Of a stretch of DNA of 64,000 nt, positions 13,001 to 25,644 are shown one piece after another. Source of the DNA: Williamsia sp. (lineage in GTDB: Bacteria > Bacteroidota > Bacteroidia > Chitinophagales > Chitinophagaceae). A model generated the notes under the pieces. That model worked only from the letters and a program-made list of their open reading frames with translations, made no database searches and was not told where the DNA came from. Each line of letters begins with the position of its first letter. Position 1 is the first letter of the stretch. The DNA lies in the NCBI GenBank assembly GCA_015069695.1, contig JADCRZ010000011.1:89410-153409 (forward strand), written 5' to 3'. A program made the translations under genes and the position numbers.

Positions 13001-13499
13001 GCTTGCCTTGCTTTTTGGCGATGCTGTAGAGGTAGAGGTCCATAAAGCTTTGCATATCGCCTTTTTTGTAAGCCTCTGCTGTTTGGCGGTTTTTGGCTTC
13101 CCAGATATCGCGGGTCGTAATTTTATCTGCCGGCTTGCCCAGGGTTTTTGAGAGTTTGCCCGCCCATTTGTCGTACTCTTTCCGGTTCATCAGGGTTTTC
13201 AGCAGGCGCCCTTCATTCTCCTGCGACCATTTGCGCACGCTGGCATTGATCACGCTGTCTGCATCAACTTCAATGTTGAAACCTTCGGCCTGTTCGAAAT
13301 AATGATAGAGGGAATCGCTGAAATAGAACAGGCGCTTGTCGCGCAGGTGGATGGTTCCATATAGAAAGGAAGGCTTGCTCAGGCCATTGCCGCTGATGCG
13401 CCAGAGAAAAGTCTGCGGCGTTTTTTGTGCGTACATGCTCATGCACAGGGCTGCTAAACCGGCCAGCAATACCATTCTTCTGCAGTAAATACGTGCCAT
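9996..13499 (-). CDS. TraB/GumN-family protein with a long C-terminal extension
   Basis: 1167 aa; signal peptide; N-terminal TraB/GumN-like FLWRISGNGLSKPSFLYGTIHLRDKR...FFAVGVAHLPGDTGVIDLLRKRGF. Confidence 0.8.
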   Translation of the reverse strand: MARIYCRRMVLLAGLAALCMSMYAQKTPQTFLWRISGNGLSKPSFLYGTIHLRDKRLFYFSDSLYHYFEQAEGFNIEVDADSVINASVRKWSQENEGRLLKTLMNRKEYDKWAGKLSKTLGKPADKITTRDIWEAKNRQTAEAYKKGDMQSFMDLYLYSIAKKQGKLVGGIEDVEDQLSIIDDLFDEIDLAYLTQDSARETGLNILETMKQIYLKQDLDAIESFTSGQANQKFKDIVLMRRNVKMALRMDSLARRRSSFFAVGVAHLPGDTGVIDLLRKRGFSVDPVFSSKKIAPENYTYKTVDQPWNLFTHELNLYHVETPGTLQPMDMMKEIMDMEFYYDMYTGKVYYTAVINSTASEEKKDSVFSSMINRMSGGVNRGLVSQKPITRQNWEGRDVVMKTGNDQLIHLNVYLANGYAYMAMVLAKKEEINDKDTKRFFDSFVMTPTATITRPYISYRDTAQAFSVLFPHQPAVQEQTGGEDGSGAMKVFSATDYSSGNSYALTVRNTKAGNYIPTDTSYLRLVKAQVLALMKGDTVSRILTHQGYPAVQVNGPAKAENVYYHTLTVLRGNRTYFLIAQSKGTNPANALADSFFHSFSLNNYGRGDWQIRTAPDGSFSSWLPALVQEEKEDEPDTSIAAVVDTTAATDEPKDEFVFHDKATATSYNIEREKFSAYYFTQQDSSFFSSVADRYKAEGDSITGFKLTLLSNDKAADVEIQHAYSSIIKKFRFILHGDTLYKVFTYTPRWLAQNGDTRQFFDRFHFPAPAPATTLFSNKTAKLVDDLGSADSATFHEASFYLYDAKLQKKDLPAFLPLLLKPLKDFSTDGYGANNRLVEAIAPVADSSTVDFVLQHYHTLNGEAQKLQYSLLKLLVMMEQPYASQAATRLFDSAGAPAGSPSIFANTLTKHLPLAKKLFPKIAALLKEPTAALDWSYLLSSLLDSNVITKDDLLPQLDHLIAAAATQKKGVEADDYDYSLTNVLDLFGALNTPTGNAKLQEYSRLNNLAISYQTINWLINNKQPLPVPVISKLAKADAYRTFIYDTLKSAGKASLFPAAQLNQKQFAASYMLSYASDDDDPASVVFVSEKTAMYKGKKQKFYLYKVSFGEDEDVTRYLGIAGPFPLNAKQVTSKNEATGLYWEEEYAPGKINSQFNAHLANSEREEDEQ

Positions 13500-15084
13500 A
13501 GGTAAGGTTCGAAATTAAATATTCTACGGGTAACGTACCGGAAGGTGGCAGAAGTATGGTAAGCGGGATTATTTTGTGGCGGCAGGATGGCCGCATTCAG
13601 TTCTATATACCGTCCATCTTTCGAGTTTTTCTTTATGAGCTGAGTGATGATTTGTTTCGCTTTGTTGTGGTAAGCAGATCTTTTTTCTACGTATTCGCTT
13701 TCCCGCGATTGATAGTAGTAGTAAAGGCAAAAGGCGTATAGGTCGGCTTCTCCGGCGGTTTGGAGAAAGTAGTTGAAGCGGTCGCTGAGGTCAAGAAAAC
13801 TGTCTAATTGGTAAGTTTTTATTGTTTCAAACGACAAGTTTTTTATTGCGGGGTTAAGCGCACGTATTTCATTGTTCAGCTTAGCCGGGTCCAAATAGAA
13901 TAAGTCAAAATCAAGAATATTTTTATTGAATCCGGATTTCGAAATGGATATGATTAAAGCTTTATTGTCGCTCGATAGCAGCACCTTGTTATAGCTGTTG
14001 TCGTAGTGACAAAAGGCAGGTAATCGAACGTAGCTCTTTGCTGTGCAGTAAGGTAAAAACAGTTGCTGATCCTCTTTTTCAACCGGAGCGGTAAAACCAG
14101 ATCATTTTCCCGGAGCTGGGCAATCATGATAAAACCGATAAATTCCATCACAATATGACAGGCCCTGCCGATCTGCTCCAGCCGGCGCAAACTCATCTTG
14201 TCAAAGCCATCGCTGCCTTCTATAGAAGTAAATAATTTCTGCAGGTGAGCCGAAACAGGAAACGGGAGGTATTTGATGATCGCTTTTTGTTTGTCGTTCA
14301 AGGTAACGATTTCACTACCCGAAGCTTCCTCACTCTTCATGTCGCGGACCTTTTTGTTGCCGGCCCGGTCCAGGGCTTCAAAGATGATCTGTGTTAGCTG
14401 TTCATTGGGCTCGAAACTGGGAGGTGTTTCAACGGACAGCACGGGCAAAGGATTTATGTTGACATGATCAGGGTGTTTGCAAAACAATTCCCAGAGTGGT
14501 GTAAGACTATCCTGCTTTTCTAAAAACACCAATCCCCTTGCCGGCTTTTCAGTTATCTTCAGGTCTTTGTTCGTCATTGTCTGCGCGGGCCCCAGCGCGT
14601 CATCAAATGCTTGTTTGATCGTCATTTTGCGCTGGCAGATGTTGCGGTAGAACCGGATGGAAAATTCAGTCGCGCTCTTGTCCTCTACCGATGCGTTGGT
14701 TGCGATAACAGCAGGTACACCGATCTCCAAGAGCCGCCTGACCTGCCCGGCTGTTGAGCACCCGTTCAATACCACCAGCTTCAGCGTTCCTCTTTTTACG
14801 CTTTCATGCGATTAATATGCGATCCCGTCGGAATTGGCAGCCACTTCATTGAATAAGAGGGAATCCCTCCCTGCATGTCCGCTGAAATGAAACAGGGCCA
14901 CATGGCCTGTGTAAATATCCAGCGCTTCGTTGATTCTTTCAAGGGTTGCATAAGGTTCCCTGTGTATGTAGAACAAGCCCCTGTTCGCTTCCAACAGGCT
15001 TCGTTGTACACTGTCGTCTCCCTGGTTCAAGGTGTCAAGCGGACGTTCAAGACTGTTCGCGTAGGAAAGAAAAATGACCTTCAT
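13454..15084 (-). pseudogene. CHAT-domain (caspase-like) protein, disrupted by an in-frame stop and a frameshift
   Basis: ORFs 14812-15084 (FHFSGHAGRDS), 13954-14775 (VVLNGCSTAGQVRRLLEIGVPAVIATNAS) and 13454-13984 are collinear. First two are in the same frame separated by TAA (14812-14814); the third frame is open from 14101, where the second loses coding character. Confidence 0.75.
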
Positions 15085-15166: not shown

Positions 15167-16135
15167 TTATACCTGAAACTTCTCCGGCCTTTGCCGCAAA
15201 GCCCACTCAAAAAGGCTGTAGTATAAAATACCTGCAGGCCACCACCCGGGCTGGAAGTGAGCAACAACAGCGATGTGCAGCAGTACAAATGACCTGACGG
15301 TGGCGAGGATAGGAACCAGGGCACCCTGTTCATTTTTTGTTTTAGTGGTGTGTGCAATGAATTGTCCGTACACAGCAATGATAGACGCGGCTATGCCAAA
15401 AGAGATTTCATGCCAGTCTTTTCCCGGCTGCCACCAATAACAGGCAAGGGTAACCGCTACCAACAAATCTCCTCCCTGTACCGTTCTTCTCCAGCCAAAT
15501 ACAACAGGAAAAGTTTTGTACCCGGTGGCCCGGTCAGCTTCAATGTCTTTTAAATAACCGATCAAAACAAAGTTGGCGTAGGAGAGCAGGGTCACCAACA
15601 GGTAAGGGATTAAATGGATGGGAAACTGGTGAATTTTGGGTGAAAGCTGGACAAAATAACCCATCAGCGGCAGAAGGGCTACGATCCATGCATTGTAAAA
15701 GGGGCCGCCGAGCGGGATATTCTTTTTGACGTATGAATAAGTGGCCAAACCAACCACGGCACCCAGGCTCAGTCCCAAGCAAACCGGATTGAACCAGTAA
15801 AACAGGCACCCGGATAACAGCAATCCACTCAGGCTAACAATCAGTACATTCCTGATAGATACAATGCCCCTGGAAAGTGGCCGGTAAGGAGCGGAGAGTT
15901 TGTCGGTGTCTGTCTGGAAACAATCGGTCAGGGCCTGGCCAAAGCCATAGCCCAAAAAAAATATGCCGAGTGCTACAATTGTTTTGAATGGATGTGGGGA
16001 GGGATCATAGCTCATGGATACACCCGCTGCTCCTGCGATGCCGGAAACAAAAAGAAGATAAGGCCGCATCTGCACAAAATAAGCCCTCCAGAAGCGGGGA
16101 ACGTAAAGGGGATAGATGTGGGGGCTTTGATTCAT
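15167..16135 (-). CDS. UbiA-family prenyltransferase, integral membrane
   Basis: 322 aa, multiple TM segments, UbiA-like DCFQTDTDKLSAPYRPLSRG motif and GYLKDIEADRATGYKTFPVVFG second motif. Confidence 0.85.
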   Translation of the reverse strand: MNQSPHIYPLYVPRFWRAYFVQMRPYLLFVSGIAGAAGVSMSYDPSPHPFKTIVALGIFFLGYGFGQALTDCFQTDTDKLSAPYRPLSRGIVSIRNVLIVSLSGLLLSGCLFYWFNPVCLGLSLGAVVGLATYSYVKKNIPLGGPFYNAWIVALLPLMGYFVQLSPKIHQFPIHLIPYLLVTLLSYANFVLIGYLKDIEADRATGYKTFPVVFGWRRTVQGGDLLVAVTLACYWWQPGKDWHEISFGIAASIIAVYGQFIAHTTKTKNEQGALVPILATVRSFVLLHIAVVAHFQPGWWPAGILYYSLFEWALRQRPEKFQV

Positions 16136-16136
16136 G

Positions 16137-17081
16137 TTATTGTCCCAGTAAGGTAAGGGCTTTGGGCATTACGGTGATGGACACGTGCTTAGCCATGACT
16201 GTCTCTCCATCACATTCAAATACCACCGGTTCATCAGATGAAAGACTAAATGATTTTGTAAAAACAGAAAGGCGTGCAGGGCTCTCATCAAACCTTCCTT
16301 TCTCCAGCCCGTAAAGGGTTTGCAGCAATTCAAAGCGGTTCATGGCTGTGCAGATATTCAGTCCCAGCTGTCCGTCGTCGGGCAGGATAGGTTGGGTGTA
16401 ATGCAGGGTGCCGGATATAAAGGGGCTTTTGATCAGGTTGATATTGGAAAGCTGCACCTGCCTTTCTTCCTCATTGAACCGGATAAAAACCGGTTTATTC
16501 GTGAACCGCAGAATGGTTGAAAGAGCGGTGTGGGAAATGGCCAGGCCGGTGGCGTGCTTCTTCAGCCATCGCAACAAGGGGCCCGGGTGATTAAAGCGCC
16601 AGTTTCCTTCTGCCGTTGCACCAAAGCTGGCATTGACGATAAAATAGGTTTCCTGCAGCCCATTGTCTGCATCGCCGTAAACAGCCCTTCCGGTATCCTG
16701 TTGCTGATAAGGCCTGGACAGATCGATCCGCACCGGAATGCCTTGAATAAAATGCTGAAACGGTTTTAAAAAATCATTGCTCGAACCCAGTCCGACCGCG
16801 CCGATGGGGATAGCCTTACTTTTTTCATCTTTCGCTTTCAGCAAGGCATTGACCAGAGTATGCAAACTGCCATCACCACCGGCAGAGATGATGCAGCTGG
16901 GGCGTGCATCCTGCAACAAGGGCAGAAGCGTTTCACCCAGCAGACTGCCTTTTTCTGATACCAGCTCGGTAACCGGTACACCCAGTTTTTGCTTCACCTT
17001 GTCTTTTATCAAAAGCCAGCGCTTCCAACCCCTGCCCCCATGGCAGGCAGGGTTTACAACAACAATGGCATGTTCGATCAT
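16137..17081 (-). CDS. Diacylglycerol kinase-family (DAGK catalytic domain) lipid kinase
   Basis: VVNPACHGGRGWKRW and IISAGGDGSLHTLVNALL motifs. Start at 17081 (MIEHAIVVVNP) preferred over the longer track ORF. Confidence 0.85.
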   Translation of the reverse strand: MIEHAIVVVNPACHGGRGWKRWLLIKDKVKQKLGVPVTELVSEKGSLLGETLLPLLQDARPSCIISAGGDGSLHTLVNALLKAKDEKSKAIPIGAVGLGSSNDFLKPFQHFIQGIPVRIDLSRPYQQQDTGRAVYGDADNGLQETYFIVNASFGATAEGNWRFNHPGPLLRWLKKHATGLAISHTALSTILRFTNKPVFIRFNEEERQVQLSNINLIKSPFISGTLHYTQPILPDDGQLGLNICTAMNRFELLQTLYGLEKGRFDESPARLSVFTKSFSLSSDEPVVFECDGETVMAKHVSITVMPKALTLLGQ

Positions 17082-17109
17082 ACAAATAGTTTGTTTGGTT
17101 GGGATAAGC

Positions 17110-18045
17110 TCAGAGACAGCGCACGTCAATAGTCACCTTGTCTTTTTTATTCAGCGGAAAATCTGCAAGTACATAGTATCCATAGGTGTTGATAGATTGT
17201 TTTTCCAGCGCCCGGTAAATCACATCTCCTTTGCGGCAACCGACCAGCAGGTAGTTGATAGCCTGGTGTTCCAGTTCCTCCAGCACATCATTGATTCCTT
17301 TTATGTTTTGCGCATCGTGGTTGTATAAACAGGCAAATCTAAGTGTATCTCCTTCCTGCGGAGCATGGGCATACCTGGCCGGTTGCAGCAATTGACCGAT
17401 GCGCAATCCCCATTTGAGTACCGGGTGAATATGCGTGATCGCAAGCCTGTACATTTTATAGGTATAGAAGTACCCGAGTCCGTTCGGCAAAACAGTGTAG
17501 TAAGAAGGGTCTACAGTTTCTTCCTGAAAAAGCGTGATAGAGAAGAGGAATGGATGCTCATTTGCCTGCCTCTGTTGCGGCACCCTTGCTTTTGTGGGCA
17601 GGGTTAGATAAACAAACTCATACAACCATATTTTGTGTACGGCACTTACCAGGCGGATAACAGGGTGGTTGGATAATTTCAGGGTAATAAAATTCCGGGT
17701 CAGTCCGTGCTCTTTGAAAAAGGTCTGGTAAAAATGTTTTGCCATCAGTTTGCCGACACCCTTCTTTCTGTACAGGGGATGGACCTTCACGTCATAACAA
17801 ACACCCGATGGAAAGCGATCCCCATTCACAATCATTTCAGTTTTTGCGCCAATGGCTGTACCGATTGCCTTTTCATTCTCATCCACGGCCAAACAGGTAT
17901 GATAGGTTTTATAGACAGTTGTGCGGGAAAGAAAATGGTCTTTCAGGATCTCCAGCTTTATGCTACGGCCCTGTACGATGGCCAGCTCCAAAGCACGGAG
18001 GCTGGCATCGTATTTTGGGTCATAAGAAACCAGGCGTACGTTCAT
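17110..18045 (-). CDS. GNAT-family N-acetyltransferase/acyltransferase
   Basis: 311 aa; VCYDVKVHPLYRKKGVGKLMAKHFYQTFF resembles the GNAT acyl-CoA binding motif; ATGA overlap with the upstream gene. Confidence 0.75.
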   Translation of the reverse strand: MNVRLVSYDPKYDASLRALELAIVQGRSIKLEILKDHFLSRTTVYKTYHTCLAVDENEKAIGTAIGAKTEMIVNGDRFPSGVCYDVKVHPLYRKKGVGKLMAKHFYQTFFKEHGLTRNFITLKLSNHPVIRLVSAVHKIWLYEFVYLTLPTKARVPQQRQANEHPFLFSITLFQEETVDPSYYTVLPNGLGYFYTYKMYRLAITHIHPVLKWGLRIGQLLQPARYAHAPQEGDTLRFACLYNHDAQNIKGINDVLEELEHQAINYLLVGCRKGDVIYRALEKQSINTYGYYVLADFPLNKKDKVTIDVRCL

Positions 18046-19118
18046 AAGTGCTGTTTGTTTGTTGTTGCTGCAATAGAAAATACCTGGTACATCCGCGTCG
18101 ATTCAGCGGCAGTACGGTCCTGTAGGCAAGGAAACTTTTTAGCCAGCATGATCCTCGAATTTCCATCCAGCCGGTTGCGAAGAAACGTTCTCCATACTAT
18201 TGTGCTTCCCGGCCCAACTGTATGGTCAAGCAGCTTTTCCAGGTAATGCCTGTCCTCAAAGCTCAGGATGTCTGAGAAGGAATAAAAGACAGATCGGGCA
18301 GAAGCTGGCAAGCCCATTTGGGTGAAAGCCAGCAGATCAATGTGATGAAAACAAATCTCGAAGTTCTTTGTGATTAACCGCTGCCTGATCTTCTGCAAAA
18401 CTTCTTTTTGCAGGGAAGGCGGCAGGTGTACAGGATGCATCTCGCGCAAGTGCCCTTTAAAGATCAGGTGGGCCATAAAGCAGGCGGGTGCTTCACCGCG
18501 GCGGATAACCTCATCCAATGCAACAGGGATAAGTCCTGTTTGGGCCCCTGTTCCCGTAAAAGCAGGATCCTGGTTGCCGCCTGCTTTATAAACCAAAGGG
18601 TAGCAGAACAGGTGCTTAAGCAGCTTCCATCTCCGGTGCGGAAACTTGCCGGACAGTGCACCAGCCCCTGAAAAGATCAGCTCAAAATTCTTCCCGAGAA
18701 AAAAACGGACAAGCGGCCGCACTCTTTGCAGGAACCGTTCGAAATGCCCGCTGTTTAAAATTCCTTTTTCGATGCGCCTGGCCTTTTCTTGCCAGTAAAG
18801 CAAACAGCCACGATCGAGGTTTGCTTTTATCCTGTCAAATTGTTTTTTTCTCCATCCTGCTGGCGCCGGGTAGTGCCCGCAAAACTGCCAGTACTCCTCT
18901 ACCTCCATGTTTTCCAGGGCGGCCAGTTTAAGCTGCAGCAAGTAGAGCGCTTCTCTGTTCAGATCCACCGCGTGAAATATCCGGCAGCCTTCCACATCCA
19001 TCAGGGCCAGCATGCGTTCACCGCTGCCGGCTACGGCTACCACCGTGTTGCAGCCGGATCGCCGGAGCAAATCCCGTTCGATCCGGTTGTCTTCATTGAC
19101 GTGTGAATAGTAGATCAT
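18042..19118 (-). CDS. DUF3419/BtaA-like SAM-dependent 3-amino-3-carboxypropyltransferase-family protein
   Basis: MIYYSHVNEDNRIERDLLRRSGCNTVVAVAGSGERMLALMDVEG..HAVDLNREALYLLQLKLAAL. Real start is ATG at 19118, overlapping the upstream stop (ATGA); the track ORF N-terminus overlaps the upstream gene. Confidence 0.75.
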   Translation of the reverse strand: MIYYSHVNEDNRIERDLLRRSGCNTVVAVAGSGERMLALMDVEGCRIFHAVDLNREALYLLQLKLAALENMEVEEYWQFCGHYPAPAGWRKKQFDRIKANLDRGCLLYWQEKARRIEKGILNSGHFERFLQRVRPLVRFFLGKNFELIFSGAGALSGKFPHRRWKLLKHLFCYPLVYKAGGNQDPAFTGTGAQTGLIPVALDEVIRRGEAPACFMAHLIFKGHLREMHPVHLPPSLQKEVLQKIRQRLITKNFEICFHHIDLLAFTQMGLPASARSVFYSFSDILSFEDRHYLEKLLDHTVGPGSTIVWRTFLRNRLDGNSRIMLAKKFPCLQDRTAAESTRMYQVFSIAATTNKQHL

Positions 19119-20362
19119 GAATGATAAGCGCTTGGGTCGTTCCAGACTTCTTCTGTAGCAGTGGCCAGCCGGTCGATGTCTTCCCGGGTATGGGTTGCCA
19201 TGATGCTGATCCGGAACCGTTCCCCTCCCGGCGGTACGGCCGGGTATTCGATGGGGTTGACAAATATGCCTTTCTGGTGAAATAAAAAGGCTGCCTTTTC
19301 CAGGCTCATTTGTTCCGGTAATTTCAGCGCGATGATAGCGGCCTGCGGGGGTACGCAAAAACCAAAGGGTGCCAGCTTTTGAATGGCATAGGCTGCATTC
19401 TGCTGCAATTGCTTGCGCAGCCACGGTTCTGCATGGATCACTTCCAATCCGGCAAGTACAGTGGCAACAACCGGTGGCGGCAGGGAAGCAGAAAACACAT
19501 ACGATCTGGCATGATAGCGCAGGTATTCTACCAGTCCGGCAGAAGCGGCAACAAATCCGCCACAGGTGGCAAATGCTTTGCTGAATGTTCCCATGGTGAT
19601 GTCAGCTTCGTGTGCGCATTGCAGGTAGGAAGCCGTGCCGCTTCCTTCTTCACCCAGCACCCCCGTACCATGCGCATCGTCTACCACCAGCATGGCGCCA
19701 TCCTGTTTGCACAACCGGGCAATTTGATCCAGCGGAGCCAGGTCTCCATCCATGGAAAACACGCCTTCCGTGCAAACAAAGACCGTTCCCTGCTTTGGTT
19801 TGGCTTCTTCCAGCAAAGCCGTCAATTGTGTTATGTTGTTGTGGAGGTAAGGGATCCCTTTGGCTCCCGTGAGCTGCAAGCCGTCATAAAGGGAAGCATG
19901 ACTTTTCTCATCATACAAGATCAAATCATTTGATCTGCACAGGGCACCTGCGATGCCTAAATTGGCAGCAAAACCCGATGAAAAGACCAGGGCTGCTTCT
20001 TGTGATTTAAACGCTGCCAGCCTTTCCTCCAGTTCTGCAATCAGCCGGTTGTATCCATTGAGCAGCGGAGGCCCACCCATGCCGCAGCCATAGCGGTCAA
20101 TCGTTTCTTTCACGCGTTGAACCACGTGCGGATGGGTTGCCAGGCCAAGATAATTGTTGGAAGCAAACATGAGCATGTTGCGCAAAGCGCCTGTAAACGG
20201 GTCTTGTACAGTTACCTCCCTGTCTGCTGCCGACAACAGGGTTCGTTTATACGTCAGCGTTCTTTCATTCAGCATACACCGGAAAGCTTGCATGCGGGCC
20301 GGCAAGGATTGTTGTACTGCCTGTTTGCCAAGCTCCCTGAGTTTGTTTTGCTTGCTTGTCAT
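19115..20362 (-). CDS. PLP-dependent alpha-oxoamine synthase-family enzyme (KBL/AONS/SPT-like)
   Basis: MLMFASNNYLGLATHPHV, VVDDAHGTGVLGEEGSG, TFSKAFATCGGFVAAS (PLP Lys). Start at 20362 (MTSKQNKLRELG). Confidence 0.85.
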   Translation of the reverse strand: MTSKQNKLRELGKQAVQQSLPARMQAFRCMLNERTLTYKRTLLSAADREVTVQDPFTGALRNMLMFASNNYLGLATHPHVVQRVKETIDRYGCGMGGPPLLNGYNRLIAELEERLAAFKSQEAALVFSSGFAANLGIAGALCRSNDLILYDEKSHASLYDGLQLTGAKGIPYLHNNITQLTALLEEAKPKQGTVFVCTEGVFSMDGDLAPLDQIARLCKQDGAMLVVDDAHGTGVLGEEGSGTASYLQCAHEADITMGTFSKAFATCGGFVAASAGLVEYLRYHARSYVFSASLPPPVVATVLAGLEVIHAEPWLRKQLQQNAAYAIQKLAPFGFCVPPQAAIIALKLPEQMSLEKAAFLFHQKGIFVNPIEYPAVPPGGERFRISIMATHTREDIDRLATATEEVWNDPSAYHS

Positions 20363-20372
20363 ATTTCCCGGT

Positions 20373-21416
20373 TTAAGGGTGCGACCATTGTTCCTGTTGC
20401 TGCAGGAGCAGACTGAAATAAGCCCGCACGTTTCCGCCGGCTTCCGCAAATAAGTTGGGAACCAGGGCCGGAGCGCAGGCAACGGAGAGAGAGCCGGATA
20501 AGAAGCAAAGCTTTCTTTCCATTGTTGCCCTGCCCAGCAAAACCGGTTGCCAGTCTTCCCGCCGGCTTGCCGCCAAAAACTCCGGCTGCTTTAATGCAGG
20601 AATGCTAAACAGGAGCTCATACTCCCCGTGCGGACCAGCCATAAACATCCACGCGGGTAGTCCGCTCAACTGCTGTACAGGCAGGATGGCAGGATGCAGT
20701 ACATCGTCGAGGGGTACCGTGAGCTCGAAACCTGTTTCATTCAGCTCCGAAAGGACCGAGAGCGCCGGGAACAATCCGTCACTGGTATCCATACACGCTG
20801 TTGCATGCTGCCTGATAAACCTGCTCTCCTGCAGGCGGGCAAAGGGTTTGTAAGCAATGGCAGCTGAGGGATTGAACAACCTGCCGTAAGCATAGGCATT
20901 GCCTGCTCCCAGTCGCGCGGTCGCATAGAGATAATCACCTGGTTTTATCCCGGTGCGCAGCAAGGGTTTGCCTGATTCCAGCTGGGCGATTGCCGTTGCG
21001 CTGGTTGAGCAGGCAACACCCAAATTGGTGTCTCCACCCAGCACATAGATCCCGTAAGCACTGCAGGCTCCATGGATGCCTGCCTTAAATCCTTCCAGCC
21101 AGTCGGGGCCTTGTTGAACAGGCAGCACGAGCGAAAGGAGCAAGCCCATCGGTGCTGCGCCAACTGCTGCCAGATCGCTGAGAGGGGCTGTCACCGTCAT
21201 CCAGCCGATCAGGTGGGGATCGCTGTATAAACCTTCCCTGATCTCTTCATGGATGCCGTCTGTTTTAAACACCATGTATTTCTCCGGCTCGCCCGGGAGC
21301 CGGATGATTTCTGCATCTGCCTGCAGCAAACCGTTTACCTGCGCCGGATGCCGGGGAAAACTGCCGGCTACTGACATGGTAAACGCCATCTCCTTATTAA
21401 AAATAGATTCCTGCAC
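20373..21416 (-). CDS. AIR synthase/ThiL-like ATP-dependent kinase-family protein
   Basis: VFKTDGIHEE.., TAPLSDLAAVGAAPMGLLLSL, VLGGDTN, CMDTSDGLFPAL: ThiL/PurM fold motifs. Confidence 0.75.
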   Translation of the reverse strand: MQESIFNKEMAFTMSVAGSFPRHPAQVNGLLQADAEIIRLPGEPEKYMVFKTDGIHEEIREGLYSDPHLIGWMTVTAPLSDLAAVGAAPMGLLLSLVLPVQQGPDWLEGFKAGIHGACSAYGIYVLGGDTNLGVACSTSATAIAQLESGKPLLRTGIKPGDYLYATARLGAGNAYAYGRLFNPSAAIAYKPFARLQESRFIRQHATACMDTSDGLFPALSVLSELNETGFELTVPLDDVLHPAILPVQQLSGLPAWMFMAGPHGEYELLFSIPALKQPEFLAASRREDWQPVLLGRATMERKLCFLSGSLSVACAPALVPNLFAEAGGNVRAYFSLLLQQQEQWSHP

Positions 21417-21702: not shown

Positions 21703-24700
21703 GTGAAACCAGGCTGCATCCTTATATTGATGTTTAGTGTGTTTTCCCTGCGGGCACAGGTAGATTCCATTCCTGTATTTAAACAGGTGATCCTGCCTGG
21801 TTCCCCTTCTATCACCTCTGAATATTTCTTTTTCTCGGAAGATGGACTGATGTGGTTTTCCACCGCGCAAGGCTTAAACTCCTTTGATGGTTCTGACCTG
21901 GTATGCCATTCATCCCTGCAGCAAGCAAATTTATTTTCACTCAACTACATCAATGCCATGGTAGAAGACGACCGGCATAATTTCTACATAGGCACACCTG
22001 CCGGATTGTATTATTATAACCGGTCTGCAGGGTCATACACCGACATCGCCATTTCTCCACGCAAGGGCGGTCCTTTGTTTCATCCCGGCATCGCAGCCTT
22101 GCACCTTGATCACAAAGGCGTTTTGTTTGCCGGATCTGCCAACAGCGGATTGCTGGTATACGACCCTGCTGCCACCCGTTTGGCGCATTACAATCTCGAC
22201 AACTCAACACGGATTGATTGGCAGGACCGCTCGCTGAATACCGTTGTTAGCTTTGCCCCTCATGCAACCGATGAAAGCAAGCTTTGGATCGGTAGCTTTC
22301 ATGGTATTTACTTGTTCGATAAAGTCAAAAAGACATTTCTGCAAAACTTCCGGATCGTAACAGATGTCTATCATCAATATGCTCCTTTTTCAACCGGCCA
22401 TGTTAGCGTGGACGTGCAGCGCATGGATGTAGTCAATGATAGCATCATTTGGTTCAACTCCTGGGCCGGTGGCTTTGCCTGCTATAATACCAGGACCGGT
22501 GAGGTAACAATCCCTTTTGGAAGGTCAGGCCTCTTTCACGCAAAACATGTTTACTACGGATACATCATTCCGGAATTTGTGAAATGGTCACCGGGAAAAT
22601 ACCTGCTGGGTGTTTACAATGGACAAACAGCTATCTATGATACGCGGAGTGGCAACGCCCGGTATTTCAAGGTCGCTGACAACAAATACACGGAAGAGCA
22701 AACAAAATTTGTTACGCAGGACAGGCGGGGAAATACCTGGTTGCTGCAAAGGGGACGCTTGTATGTATCATTGCCGCCCGGTTTGCGGCTGCGCACAGTG
22801 GAAGTGCCCAATCAAACGGCGGTCAGTTTTTCAAGACCGGATATGCGGGGGATCTGGTTTGATACTGCAACCGGTTTTTTCTACGGCGCTTTCATGAGTT
22901 CAACGGGGGTGCACGTATTTGATACCAGTTTCAGGCTGCAAACAATAATACCCACCCCCTTGATCAACAGTTTTTTTTCTTATGCTTCCAGTCTGGACAA
23001 GGAAATTATCAAAGACGGCAGCGGCCGGTTCTGGACAACCGGCTGGAAAACCCATGTGCTGCTGCCCGGTAAAAAAAGGTTTGAGCCCGTTGAAAAAGTC
23101 TTTCCTTCCCTTTCCCGGATGGGCACAGAAAATCTATTCGATGGCCTCCTGGTTTCCCGCAAGGGCGATATACTGATCAGGAGAACCGATGGCCTTCTCT
23201 ACCAGATCAACCACCACTCTCTGAAAGTTGATAGCTTGTATTGTAAGCCCCTGAGCAACTCGGGCGCGGAGATACGCATGACCAAAAACTGGTATGATGG
23301 AGACAGAAACATGGTTTACCTCACTGCCAAGAATTGCCTGGAACAGGTTTCGCTCGATGATGGAAAGCACAGGCGGGTGCCGAACCTCTCTTTACTGGGC
23401 AACTCCCCGCTGCCTCACTATGGTGCTTGCCTGTGCACGCTGGATGCAGCAGGAAGGATCTGGTGCATGGTGCGGGAATCAGGTGTCCGCATCATTGACC
23501 CCCATTCGCTCCGCTGTATAGATTCCATCGAGTTCGGCAGCAGGGGATTGATCAGGGGCGGCTATACAGCGATTGTGGGCGGGCTGCGCAATTACATGCT
23601 GTTCCGTGCACAGAACGGGGTGGTGGTATACGATACCAGAAAGCAACAATCATTTTTCTTTGACCACTCCAATGGTTTGGCTTCTCCCGACCTCAAATCC
23701 CTTTTGTACAGTCATGGCTATATGCTGGTCGGTGAGAACAGTTCCTTTGAGTATTTCAACCTCACTGATCTTGATAATTATTCCACAGAGATCATTCCTT
23801 ATGTAAATACGATCATGGCAGATACCTTGCCTGTTTTTGTCCGCGCAGACCTCCGGCAGCATGCACCCCTCCGTTTGCCGCATGACCAGAATACCTTGAT
23901 GATCAGTTTTTCTGCCACAGAATTTTTCTTTCCGGAGCGTCTTGAATATGCGTACCGGCTGAAGGGTATTGATAACAAATGGCATTGCGTGAATTCATCA
24001 AACCGGAAAATTTCTTATTCACAGCTAAAGCCGGGCACCTATGTATTTTGCCTGATGGCACAGCGGGAGGGAGGCAACTGGCAGGGCAAGGCGGTGGAGT
24101 ATACGATCAGCATCGTACCGGCATTCTGGCAAACACTTTTATTTAAGTTGCTGGTAGGTTTGGCTGTGGCAACCGGCGCTTACCTGCTTTACCGCAGGCG
24201 CATTACCTTTATCAGGCAACAACACGTGCGGCAAGCCGCCCAGGAAAAAGCCCTGCTCGAATTGGAAGCCCGCGCCCTCCGCTCCCAGATGAATCCGCAT
24301 TTTATTTTTAACAGCCTGAACTCCATCAAATCCCTGATCAACAAAAATCAGAATGAACCCGCCGCTGTTTATCTCACCACTTTTTCAAAGCTGATCCGGA
24401 CCCTTTTTCAGCATTCAGACAAGCGCGAGATCAGTCTCTACGAAGAACTGGAAACCTGCCGCCTGTACACACAACTGGAGAAAATGCGCTTTGGGGAGAA
24501 AGTTGATTTTGTTTTTGATATCGAAGAAGGGATTGACCTGAAAGACATCAAAGTGCCTGCCCTGGTGCTGCAGCCTTTTATTGAAAACGCCATCTGGCAT
24601 GGACTGATACCCAGGGAGGAAGGTGGCAAGCTGGCTGTAACGGTGAGCCAGCACGATGGAACGGTGGAGTGCACGATTGATGACAACGGGGTAGGGAGGG

Positions 24701-24894
24701 ATGTGTCTGCAAAATACAAAACCGGACTGGCTGTTTATGAATCAAAAGGCATTTCGCTCACCCAATCGCGCCTTCGCCTGGACAAGCTCATGAACAACCG
24801 GGAAGATACGCTCCTGATCATCGATAAGAAGGATGAAAAGGACTGTGCGGCAGGTACTACCGTGATCATCCGTTTTACTCAACACAACAGCTGA
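21703..24894 (+). CDS. Two-component regulator propeller / LytS-type sensor histidine kinase
   Basis: N-terminal reg_prop-like repeats (FFFSEDGLMWFSTAQGLNSFDG), Y_Y_Y-like region, TM, then ALRSQMNPHFIFNSLNSIKSLI and ATPase region. GTG start at 21703. Confidence 0.9.
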   Translation: MKPGCILILMFSVFSLRAQVDSIPVFKQVILPGSPSITSEYFFFSEDGLMWFSTAQGLNSFDGSDLVCHSSLQQANLFSLNYINAMVEDDRHNFYIGTPAGLYYYNRSAGSYTDIAISPRKGGPLFHPGIAALHLDHKGVLFAGSANSGLLVYDPAATRLAHYNLDNSTRIDWQDRSLNTVVSFAPHATDESKLWIGSFHGIYLFDKVKKTFLQNFRIVTDVYHQYAPFSTGHVSVDVQRMDVVNDSIIWFNSWAGGFACYNTRTGEVTIPFGRSGLFHAKHVYYGYIIPEFVKWSPGKYLLGVYNGQTAIYDTRSGNARYFKVADNKYTEEQTKFVTQDRRGNTWLLQRGRLYVSLPPGLRLRTVEVPNQTAVSFSRPDMRGIWFDTATGFFYGAFMSSTGVHVFDTSFRLQTIIPTPLINSFFSYASSLDKEIIKDGSGRFWTTGWKTHVLLPGKKRFEPVEKVFPSLSRMGTENLFDGLLVSRKGDILIRRTDGLLYQINHHSLKVDSLYCKPLSNSGAEIRMTKNWYDGDRNMVYLTAKNCLEQVSLDDGKHRRVPNLSLLGNSPLPHYGACLCTLDAAGRIWCMVRESGVRIIDPHSLRCIDSIEFGSRGLIRGGYTAIVGGLRNYMLFRAQNGVVVYDTRKQQSFFFDHSNGLASPDLKSLLYSHGYMLVGENSSFEYFNLTDLDNYSTEIIPYVNTIMADTLPVFVRADLRQHAPLRLPHDQNTLMISFSATEFFFPERLEYAYRLKGIDNKWHCVNSSNRKISYSQLKPGTYVFCLMAQREGGNWQGKAVEYTISIVPAFWQTLLFKLLVGLAVATGAYLLYRRRITFIRQQHVRQAAQEKALLELEARALRSQMNPHFIFNSLNSIKSLINKNQNEPAAVYLTTFSKLIRTLFQHSDKREISLYEELETCRLYTQLEKMRFGEKVDFVFDIEEGIDLKDIKVPALVLQPFIENAIWHGLIPREEGGKLAVTVSQHDGTVECTIDDNGVGRDVSAKYKTGLAVYESKGISLTQSRLRLDKLMNNREDTLLIIDKKDEKDCAAGTTVIIRFTQHNS

Positions 24895-24897
24895 TTT

Positions 24898-25644
24898 ATG
24901 ATACGGGCAATCGTGATCGATGATGAACAAAGCTGCGTGGACAGCCTTTGTTTTGACCTGGAGAAATGCTGCCCGGACGTGCAGGTGCTTGAATGTTGCA
25001 CCTCACCCAAACAAGGCATCCTTGCCATTCGCAAACGCAAGCCTGACCTGGTTTTTCTGGATGTGCAGATGCCATGGATGAACGGCTTTGAGATGCTGGA
25101 GCTGATAGACGAGAAAAATTTCTCCGTCATTTTTACCACCGCATTCGATCAGTTTGCCGTCAGGGCTTTCCGGATCAGCGCGGTTGATTATTTGCTGAAA
25201 CCCATCGATGTTACCGAGCTGAAAGAAGCGGTGCAAAAAGTGGCAGAAAAGATCAACCCGCAAACAGGGCCTGCCCATATCGAGAATCTATTGCAGAATA
25301 TTCAGAAACCGGAAGCCAGCCGGCGCATTGCGTTTCGCGGAAGAGAGTCATATGAATTCATAGAGCCGCACAATATCTTGTACGCCCATGCCGAAGGCGC
25401 TTACTCCCACATCATCCTCACCAGCGGAAAAAAACTGGTGATCTCAAAAACGCTGAGCGACATCGAGGAAATGCTGCCGCCCAGCCATTTCCAGCGCATC
25501 CATCATTCTTCCCTGGTCAATATCAACCATGTCACCCATTTTTTTAAAACAGATGGCGGTTATGTTGTGCTCGACGGCGGTGAAAAGCTGGCCGTCAGCA
25601 ATTCAAAAAAGGAAGCCCTGATGGAAAAGCTGGGATTAAAATAA
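24898..25644 (+). CDS. LytTR-family response regulator
   Basis: Receiver domain (AIVIDDEQ, LVFLDVQMPWMNGFEML) and LytTR domain (HFQRIHHSSLVNINHV). 3 bp downstream of the kinase. Confidence 0.93.
   Translation: MIRAIVIDDEQSCVDSLCFDLEKCCPDVQVLECCTSPKQGILAIRKRKPDLVFLDVQMPWMNGFEMLELIDEKNFSVIFTTAFDQFAVRAFRISAVDYLLKPIDVTELKEAVQKVAEKINPQTGPAHIENLLQNIQKPEASRRIAFRGRESYEFIEPHNILYAHAEGAYSHIILTSGKKLVISKTLSDIEEMLPPSHFQRIHHSSLVNINHVTHFFKTDGGYVVLDGGEKLAVSNSKKEALMEKLGLK

Follow-up and report, generated by a model that had tools for sequence, protein, structure and literature searches.

What six tightly packed genes of a Bacteroidota genome make together is the question raised by a 64,000-nucleotide stretch of contig JADCRZ010000011.1, hereafter the window (the whole stretch of DNA that was analysed). 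In the order of transcription, they encode an AIRS-family ThiL-like kinase, a pyridoxal phosphate (PLP)-dependent alpha-oxoamine synthase (AOS), a DUF3419 protein, a GNAT-family acyltransferase, a DAGK/YegS-like lipid kinase and a UbiA-family membrane enzyme (Table 1). In our reading, to which we give a probability of about one half, the six genes are a version of a conserved and undescribed cluster, and the function of its core is to build a long-chain, sphingoid-like amine and modify it. The true unit is the four-gene core UbiA-DAGK-AIRS-AOS, with DUF3419 and GNAT as an add-on; it is very likely that this core represents a conserved biosynthetic pathway, and a lipid is the likely product.

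The conserved core and its spread in Bacteroidota

Searches with the DUF3419 protein returned, besides its own genome, only distant matches (about 27% identity) among 247 class-level genomes, and the other five genes were absent from the fetched loci of these distant matches; among 200 genomes of the same family, the single true orthologue besides its own belonged to genome G324 (50% identity). The corresponding locus, L036, contains all six genes in the order of the window, with 44-62% identity, and a cytochrome P450 and a fatty-acid desaturase are inserted between GNAT and DAGK. A scan of genome contigs with DUF3419 detected two relatives only, L036 and L037; the latter, from a Bacteroidetes metagenome-assembled genome, likewise carries all six in window order, with an MMPL exporter at the insertion point of L036. 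The viral contigs searched gave no relative. DUF3419 was a poor search anchor, being an accessory gene whose matches are mostly located without the core, and it was the switch to a UbiA profile that revealed the four-gene core.

The UbiA profile scores were bimodal, with cluster members above 240 bits and the ordinary UbiA proteins found beside other DUF3419 genes below 30 bits; one weaker member, G1016, scored 139 bits. Matches occurred in 7 of 398 phylum genomes, in 13 of 147 genomes of one order sample and in 8 of 98 of another; these samples partly overlap, and the 147-genome one, drawn twice, was counted once. Together with L036 and L037, the profile led to 25 distinct loci from many Bacteroidota families. 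Each of the 20 loci whose contigs are long enough has UbiA, DAGK, the AIRS-like kinase and the AOS together, and in most of these the four are contiguous, overlapping or at most about 150 bp apart; in the clusters of the window type, DUF3419, GNAT and the inserted genes are placed between AOS and DAGK. As for the remaining loci, the contigs of L108, L118, L119 and L122 are short or broken and hold partial gene sets, and L123 (from G1016) is a reduced variant that has UbiA, AIRS and DAGK with a NAD-epimerase-like gene, and no AOS within the 20 kb fetched.

That L036 and L037 repeat the six genes of the window without a change of order, and that the core recurs in 20 loci, means that the grouping is far beyond chance; co-occurrence at chance level in related genomes, which would have spoken against the original prediction, was looked for and not found. 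The operon call itself is borne out. The six-gene unit stands in part: L036 and L037 reproduce it, but what is conserved is the set of four, since DUF3419 and GNAT occur in only 4 of the 20 loci.

Regarding the window, the six near-gapless minus-strand genes first described were confirmed, all six open reading frames (ORFs) and every spacing included: from AIRS through AOS, DUF3419, GNAT and DAGK to UbiA, the intervals are 10 bp, a 4-bp ATGA overlap, another 4-bp ATGA overlap, 28 bp and 1 bp. The AOS start was set at ATG 20362, its longer TTG frame being an over-extension, and the DUF3419 start at 19118. The family assignments of the original prediction are each backed by Pfam.

Table 1. The six genes of the operon in the window, in order of transcription
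Gene product	Position	Strand	Role	Pfam match
AIRS-family ThiL-like kinase	20373-21416	minus	core	AIRS 5.2e-20
PLP-dependent AOS	19115-20362	minus	core	Aminotran_1_2 2e-57
DUF3419 (BtaA-like) enzyme, probably binding S-adenosylmethionine (SAM)	18042-19118	minus	accessory	DUF3419 1.4e-25
GNAT-family acyltransferase	17110-18045	minus	accessory, paired with DUF3419	Acetyltransf_1 2.5e-07
DAGK/YegS-like lipid kinase	16137-17081	minus	core	DAGK_cat 2.1e-11; YegS_C 2e-10
UbiA-family prenyltransferase-like membrane enzyme	15167-16135	minus	core	UbiA 9e-27

Upstream of the operon, a search for the Bacteroidota promoter consensus was negative, and its matches in the window were at chance level. Directly upstream lies a divergent two-component pair (21703-25644, plus strand), a propeller-type histidine kinase followed by a response-regulator-like gene; the L088 and L090 clusters also have response-regulator-like genes close by, of a kind other than that of the window. 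Downstream (13454-15084, minus strand), a CHAT-domain gene is split into three overlapping or adjacent ORFs and looks decayed (Pfam CHAT 1.3e-06, middle piece).

The core enzymes

None of the six window proteins reached an NCBIfam equivalog cut-off, so that this resource gives no functional name for any of them: the AOS scored 386 bits with bioF (cut-off 426) and 337.8 bits with NF047600, the CFB serine palmitoyltransferase (SPT) model (cut-off 640), and the AIRS protein 121.5 bits with thiL (cut-off 184). The similarity at family level would suit ordinary cofactor genes (ThiL, BioF and UbiA) brought together by accident; this is hardly credible, because all scores are under the equivalog cut-offs, paralogues of the BioF, KBL and SPT types are found elsewhere in the genome, and an arrangement kept in 20 loci contradicts chance.

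The closest relative of the AOS in the PDB is 3A2B (337 bits), the SPT from Sphingobacterium multivorum (PMC9304779). The cluster enzymes have the superfamily signature, namely the PLP lysine, the stacking histidine, DxAH, and the asparagine and arginine positions; in window numbering, K262, H155, D229, H231 and N70 are invariant in the 20 cluster AOS, and R384 is nearly so. What sets them apart is the motif GPP[LH]LNG, found in all 20 (GPPLLNG in the window). The 25 AOS paralogues compared, almost all of them from genomes that also have a cluster, lack GPP; at this position, SPT-type enzymes have GSRFLNG or GSRYLTG, and BioF has GSRLLTG. The GPP motif replaces a residue pair that, in related enzymes, is close to the substrate pocket. 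In the phylogeny, the 20 cluster AOS form one clade apart from SPT, KBL and BioF, with support of 99/94 once 20 more paralogues had been added to a first tree that had few references and weak support (74/61).

The genome itself encodes separate paralogues of the SPT, KBL and BioF types, away from the cluster, and a fifth AOS; the KBL and BioF were named from sequence alone, and the SPT scores 728 bits against the 640-bit cut-off of NF047600. This SPT is in a sphingolipid locus of its own (L129), where its neighbours are a GNAT, an epimerase and other genes of lipid type, in agreement with the earlier view that the operon is not a standard sphingolipid locus.

These data bear on whether the operon is a variant ceramide or sphingolipid operon, in which the AOS would be the SPT, the GNAT the ceramide synthase and the DAGK the ceramide kinase. 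The bacterial pathway, known from Caulobacter and Bacteroides, consists of SPT, a ketoreductase, a GNAT-type ceramide synthase and a ceramide kinase (the Caulobacter kinase is described in PMC11324152), and it resembles the cluster in that an AOS would take the first step, a short-chain dehydrogenase (SDR) is present in several related clusters, and the window variant has both a GNAT and a lipid kinase; the SPT nature of the closest PDB relative points the same way. However, the cluster AOS falls far below the SPT cut-off (338 versus 640 bits), belongs to a clade separate from SPT (99/94) and has GPP instead of GSR. In addition, GNAT is not part of the core, the SPT of the host is elsewhere, beside a GNAT and an epimerase, and the UbiA enzyme and the ThiL-like kinase, both core members, would be left unexplained, so that this alternative is distinctly improbable.

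The sulfonolipid pathway, based on the cysteate acyl-ACP transferase SulA/CapA (PMC9304779), is likewise an AOS-based route to a long-chain amine in Bacteroidota. The cysteate-specific SulA has an active-site lysine, Lys281, 30 residues after the PLP lysine (PMC9304779), whereas the window AOS has alanine there, as in SPT, which argues against a cysteate enzyme; moreover, the cluster has UbiA and two kinases, and no cysteate-synthase gene. Another small amphiphile cluster with a central AOS is SgaAB, which makes sphinganine (PMC12134224); it is described as a polyketide synthase (PKS)-AOS pair without the UbiA, ThiL-like and DAGK core, and the window cluster has no PKS.

As for the two kinases, the closest PDB relatives of the AIRS protein are thiamine-monophosphate kinases (145 bits), and its ThiL-type aspartate positions for metal and ATP binding (D34, D53, S80-D81, GGD at 127-129 and DxSD at 210-213) are kept, being invariant in 23 cluster homologues, though its score is below the ThiL cut-off. 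The DAGK protein has the lipid-kinase signature, with AGGDG (67-71) invariant in 23 homologues, and the YegS C-terminal domain.

The UbiA protein has as its closest PDB relative a digeranylgeranylglyceryl phosphate (DGGGP) synthase, at 38 bits. Compared with the canonical signature (NDxxDxxxD and DxxxD), its second aspartate motif is canonical (D197 and D201) and the first is altered to TDxxQxDxD, a form that is invariant in 23 homologues. The archaeal-type ether-lipid genes of the FCB group (geranylgeranylglyceryl phosphate (GGGP) and DGGGP synthases, PMC7852524) are a partial parallel: the UbiA profile is closest to DGGGP synthase, and isoprenoid genes adjoin UbiA in two clusters, but the score to the solved enzyme is low, the first aspartate motif is altered, the core contains an AOS, and no GGGP synthase was noticed in the cluster.

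Accessory and lineage-dependent genes

DUF3419 and GNAT form an adjacent pair in the window, L036, L037 and L078. In the DUF3419 tree, the window protein clusters with those of L036, L037 and G783 at 100/100; that of L078 joins this clade at 94/80, with a long branch that makes its place less sure. The proteins of the clade have MIYYSHxNED and GSGER or GGGAR, against CWED and SAGDN in most other DUF3419 proteins compared. An AlphaFold2 model of the window protein (3 sequences, pLDDT 68) matches SAM methyltransferase folds, the top match in the fold search being an uncharacterised Leptospira protein; the GNAT model (pLDDT 49) was too poor for comparison with ceramide synthase. The window enzyme may transfer a 3-amino-3-carboxypropyl group from SAM. 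The separate clade and the altered motifs mean that the BtaA-type chemistry which the original prediction had brought in, and with it betaine-lipid synthesis, cannot be assumed.

Synthesis of a betaine lipid of the diacylglyceryl-trimethylhomoserine (DGTS) type by a BtaA homologue, its neighbours being unrelated, would be consistent with the Pfam DUF3419 match, the feature shared with the betaine-lipid synthase. It is very improbable, since DUF3419 is absent from 16 of the 20 clusters and is therefore accessory, the window protein belongs to a clade with changed motifs (NED/GSGER instead of CWED/SAGDN), and no BtaB-type methyltransferase partner is found among the six genes. The betaine-lipid operon, the SPT operon and the chance grouping of cofactor genes were all considered and dropped.

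Other DUF3419 loci have company of a different kind. In L068 (G783), the DUF3419 of the cluster clade is beside a divergently oriented GNAT of another type, and G783 gave no UbiA-profile match in the phylum sample. L076 and L077 combine a DUF3419 with a different UbiA, a PPDK/PEP-utiliser-like gene, a dolichol-kinase-like membrane protein (assigned by eye; no Pfam match) and GNAT-like genes; L077 also has HMG-CoA reductase, and L076 phosphatidylserine decarboxylase and MMPL. They are possibly another undescribed lipid cluster, comparable to that of the window by analogy only, with DUF3419, UbiA and other kinase-like genes. In L070 (3649-11870), a PEMT/ICMT-DUF3419 fusion is accompanied by a DAGK, a GNAT, a decarboxylase-like gene and an FtsX/ABC exporter; by eye, the permease of this exporter is similar to that of the L078 cluster.

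A radical SAM gene with the canonical CxxxCxxC motif adjoins the core in 14 of the 20 loci and never occurs together with the DUF3419-GNAT pair, two loci having neither (Fisher p = 0.003, relatedness ignored). The genome of the window has a lone radical SAM gene (L128, 8650-10023), 39% identical to those of the clusters, on another contig with no cluster genes around it.

An SDR adjoins UbiA in six loci (L091, L112, L114, L115, L116 and L120); the earlier remark that no ketoreductase is adjacent is hence correct for the window and does not extend to these relatives. On one cluster SDR, the 3-ketodihydrosphingosine reductase model gave 103 bits, below its cut-off of 400. In L109 and L110, UbiA has beside it a polyprenyl synthase (Pfam 4e-72 in L109) and what is, from its sequence, probably a type-2 isopentenyl diphosphate isomerase. 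In L078, an FtsX-type ABC exporter stands between AOS and DUF3419.

Variable tailoring genes and exporters resemble a natural-product cluster, and the spread is patchy, with a DUF3419 orthologue in 2 of 200 same-family genomes and UbiA matches in 7 of 398 phylum genomes; CAI-1-type signals are likewise products of AOS enzymes, and the CAI-1 synthase is among the PDB relatives of the cluster AOS. The product might then be a specialised non-membrane metabolite (a signal, pigment or antibiotic) derived from an AOS-made aminoketone, with the same enzymes acting as tailoring steps. This seems rather doubtful, given that UbiA and the DAGK/YegS lipid kinase are constant in the core, and that the neighbourhoods which were inspected showed no sign of a nonribosomal peptide synthetase, a PKS or a carrier protein; if the metabolite were an amphiphile, it would overlap with the sphingoid-like amine favoured here.

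Proposed pathway and its meaning

On the best reading, the product is an AOS-derived amino-lipid, probably prenylated and phosphorylated and with swappable tailoring; its building blocks would be a fatty acid and an amino acid and, probably, an isoprenoid as well. The AOS, whose catalytic residues are present, would join an acyl thioester and an amino acid by condensation into a 2-amino-3-ketone, which a ketoreductase would reduce (the UbiA-adjacent SDR in the six relatives, an unlinked enzyme in the window). The DAGK-type kinase would then form a lipid monophosphate, and a second phosphate could come from the ThiL-like kinase; ThiL acts on thiamine phosphate and turns the monophosphate into a diphosphate, hence the proposed relay of the two enzymes. 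UbiA would attach a prenyl group, or an allylic lipid of similar kind, to the product; the simplest linkage would be an ether, of the sort that its relative DGGGP synthase forms on glycerol. Finally, in the window, DUF3419 may transfer a SAM-derived aminocarboxypropyl group and GNAT may acylate an amine; relatives have a radical SAM enzyme in their place, and the set can be extended by a P450, a desaturase or an exporter.

Support for a sphingoid-like amine comes from the catalytic residues kept in the core enzymes, the AOS clade, the bimodal UbiA profile and the conserved gene order, as well as from the lipid-type partners: DAGK/YegS, the P450 and desaturase of L036, the exporters of L037 and L078, the SDR, and the isoprenoid genes of L109 and L110. 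The alanine shared with SPT, in place of the SulA lysine, also counts in its favour. Several points weigh on the other side. The GPP motif means that the amino-acid substrate of the AOS may be other than serine, and the non-canonical first aspartate motif of UbiA that a prenyl diphosphate may not be its substrate; sphingolipid chemistry offers no obvious role for the ThiL-like enzyme, and the window operon has no adjacent ketoreductase. L123, with no AOS in the 20 kb fetched, indicates that UbiA, AIRS and DAGK can act without the AOS, and fits a separable UbiA-kinase-kinase module. Moreover, the substrates, the product and the order of the steps are inferred from the gene set, gene order, AOS clade and motif that were observed.

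A more specific form of the proposal, tentative and on balance unlikely, is that the core produces lipids of a new class, in which sphingolipid and archaeal-lipid logic would be united: a sphingoid-type backbone would carry an ether-linked isoprenoid and a phosphate. Its head groups would be homoserine-like plus acyl in the lineage of the window and radical-SAM-modified in others.

In conclusion, the cluster appears to be undescribed, as had been supposed, since no description of the gene combination was found among the 5.39 million open-access papers searched. A conserved core, with an AOS clade unlike SPT, KBL and BioF, spans many Bacteroidota families; the GPP[LH]LNG motif and the UbiA profile offer a concrete handle for genome mining, and the six-gene set is small and suited to expression. 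If a sphingoid base is indeed joined to an isoprenoid, the finding would bear on the questions of the lipid divide and on the unidentified lipids of Bacteroidota.

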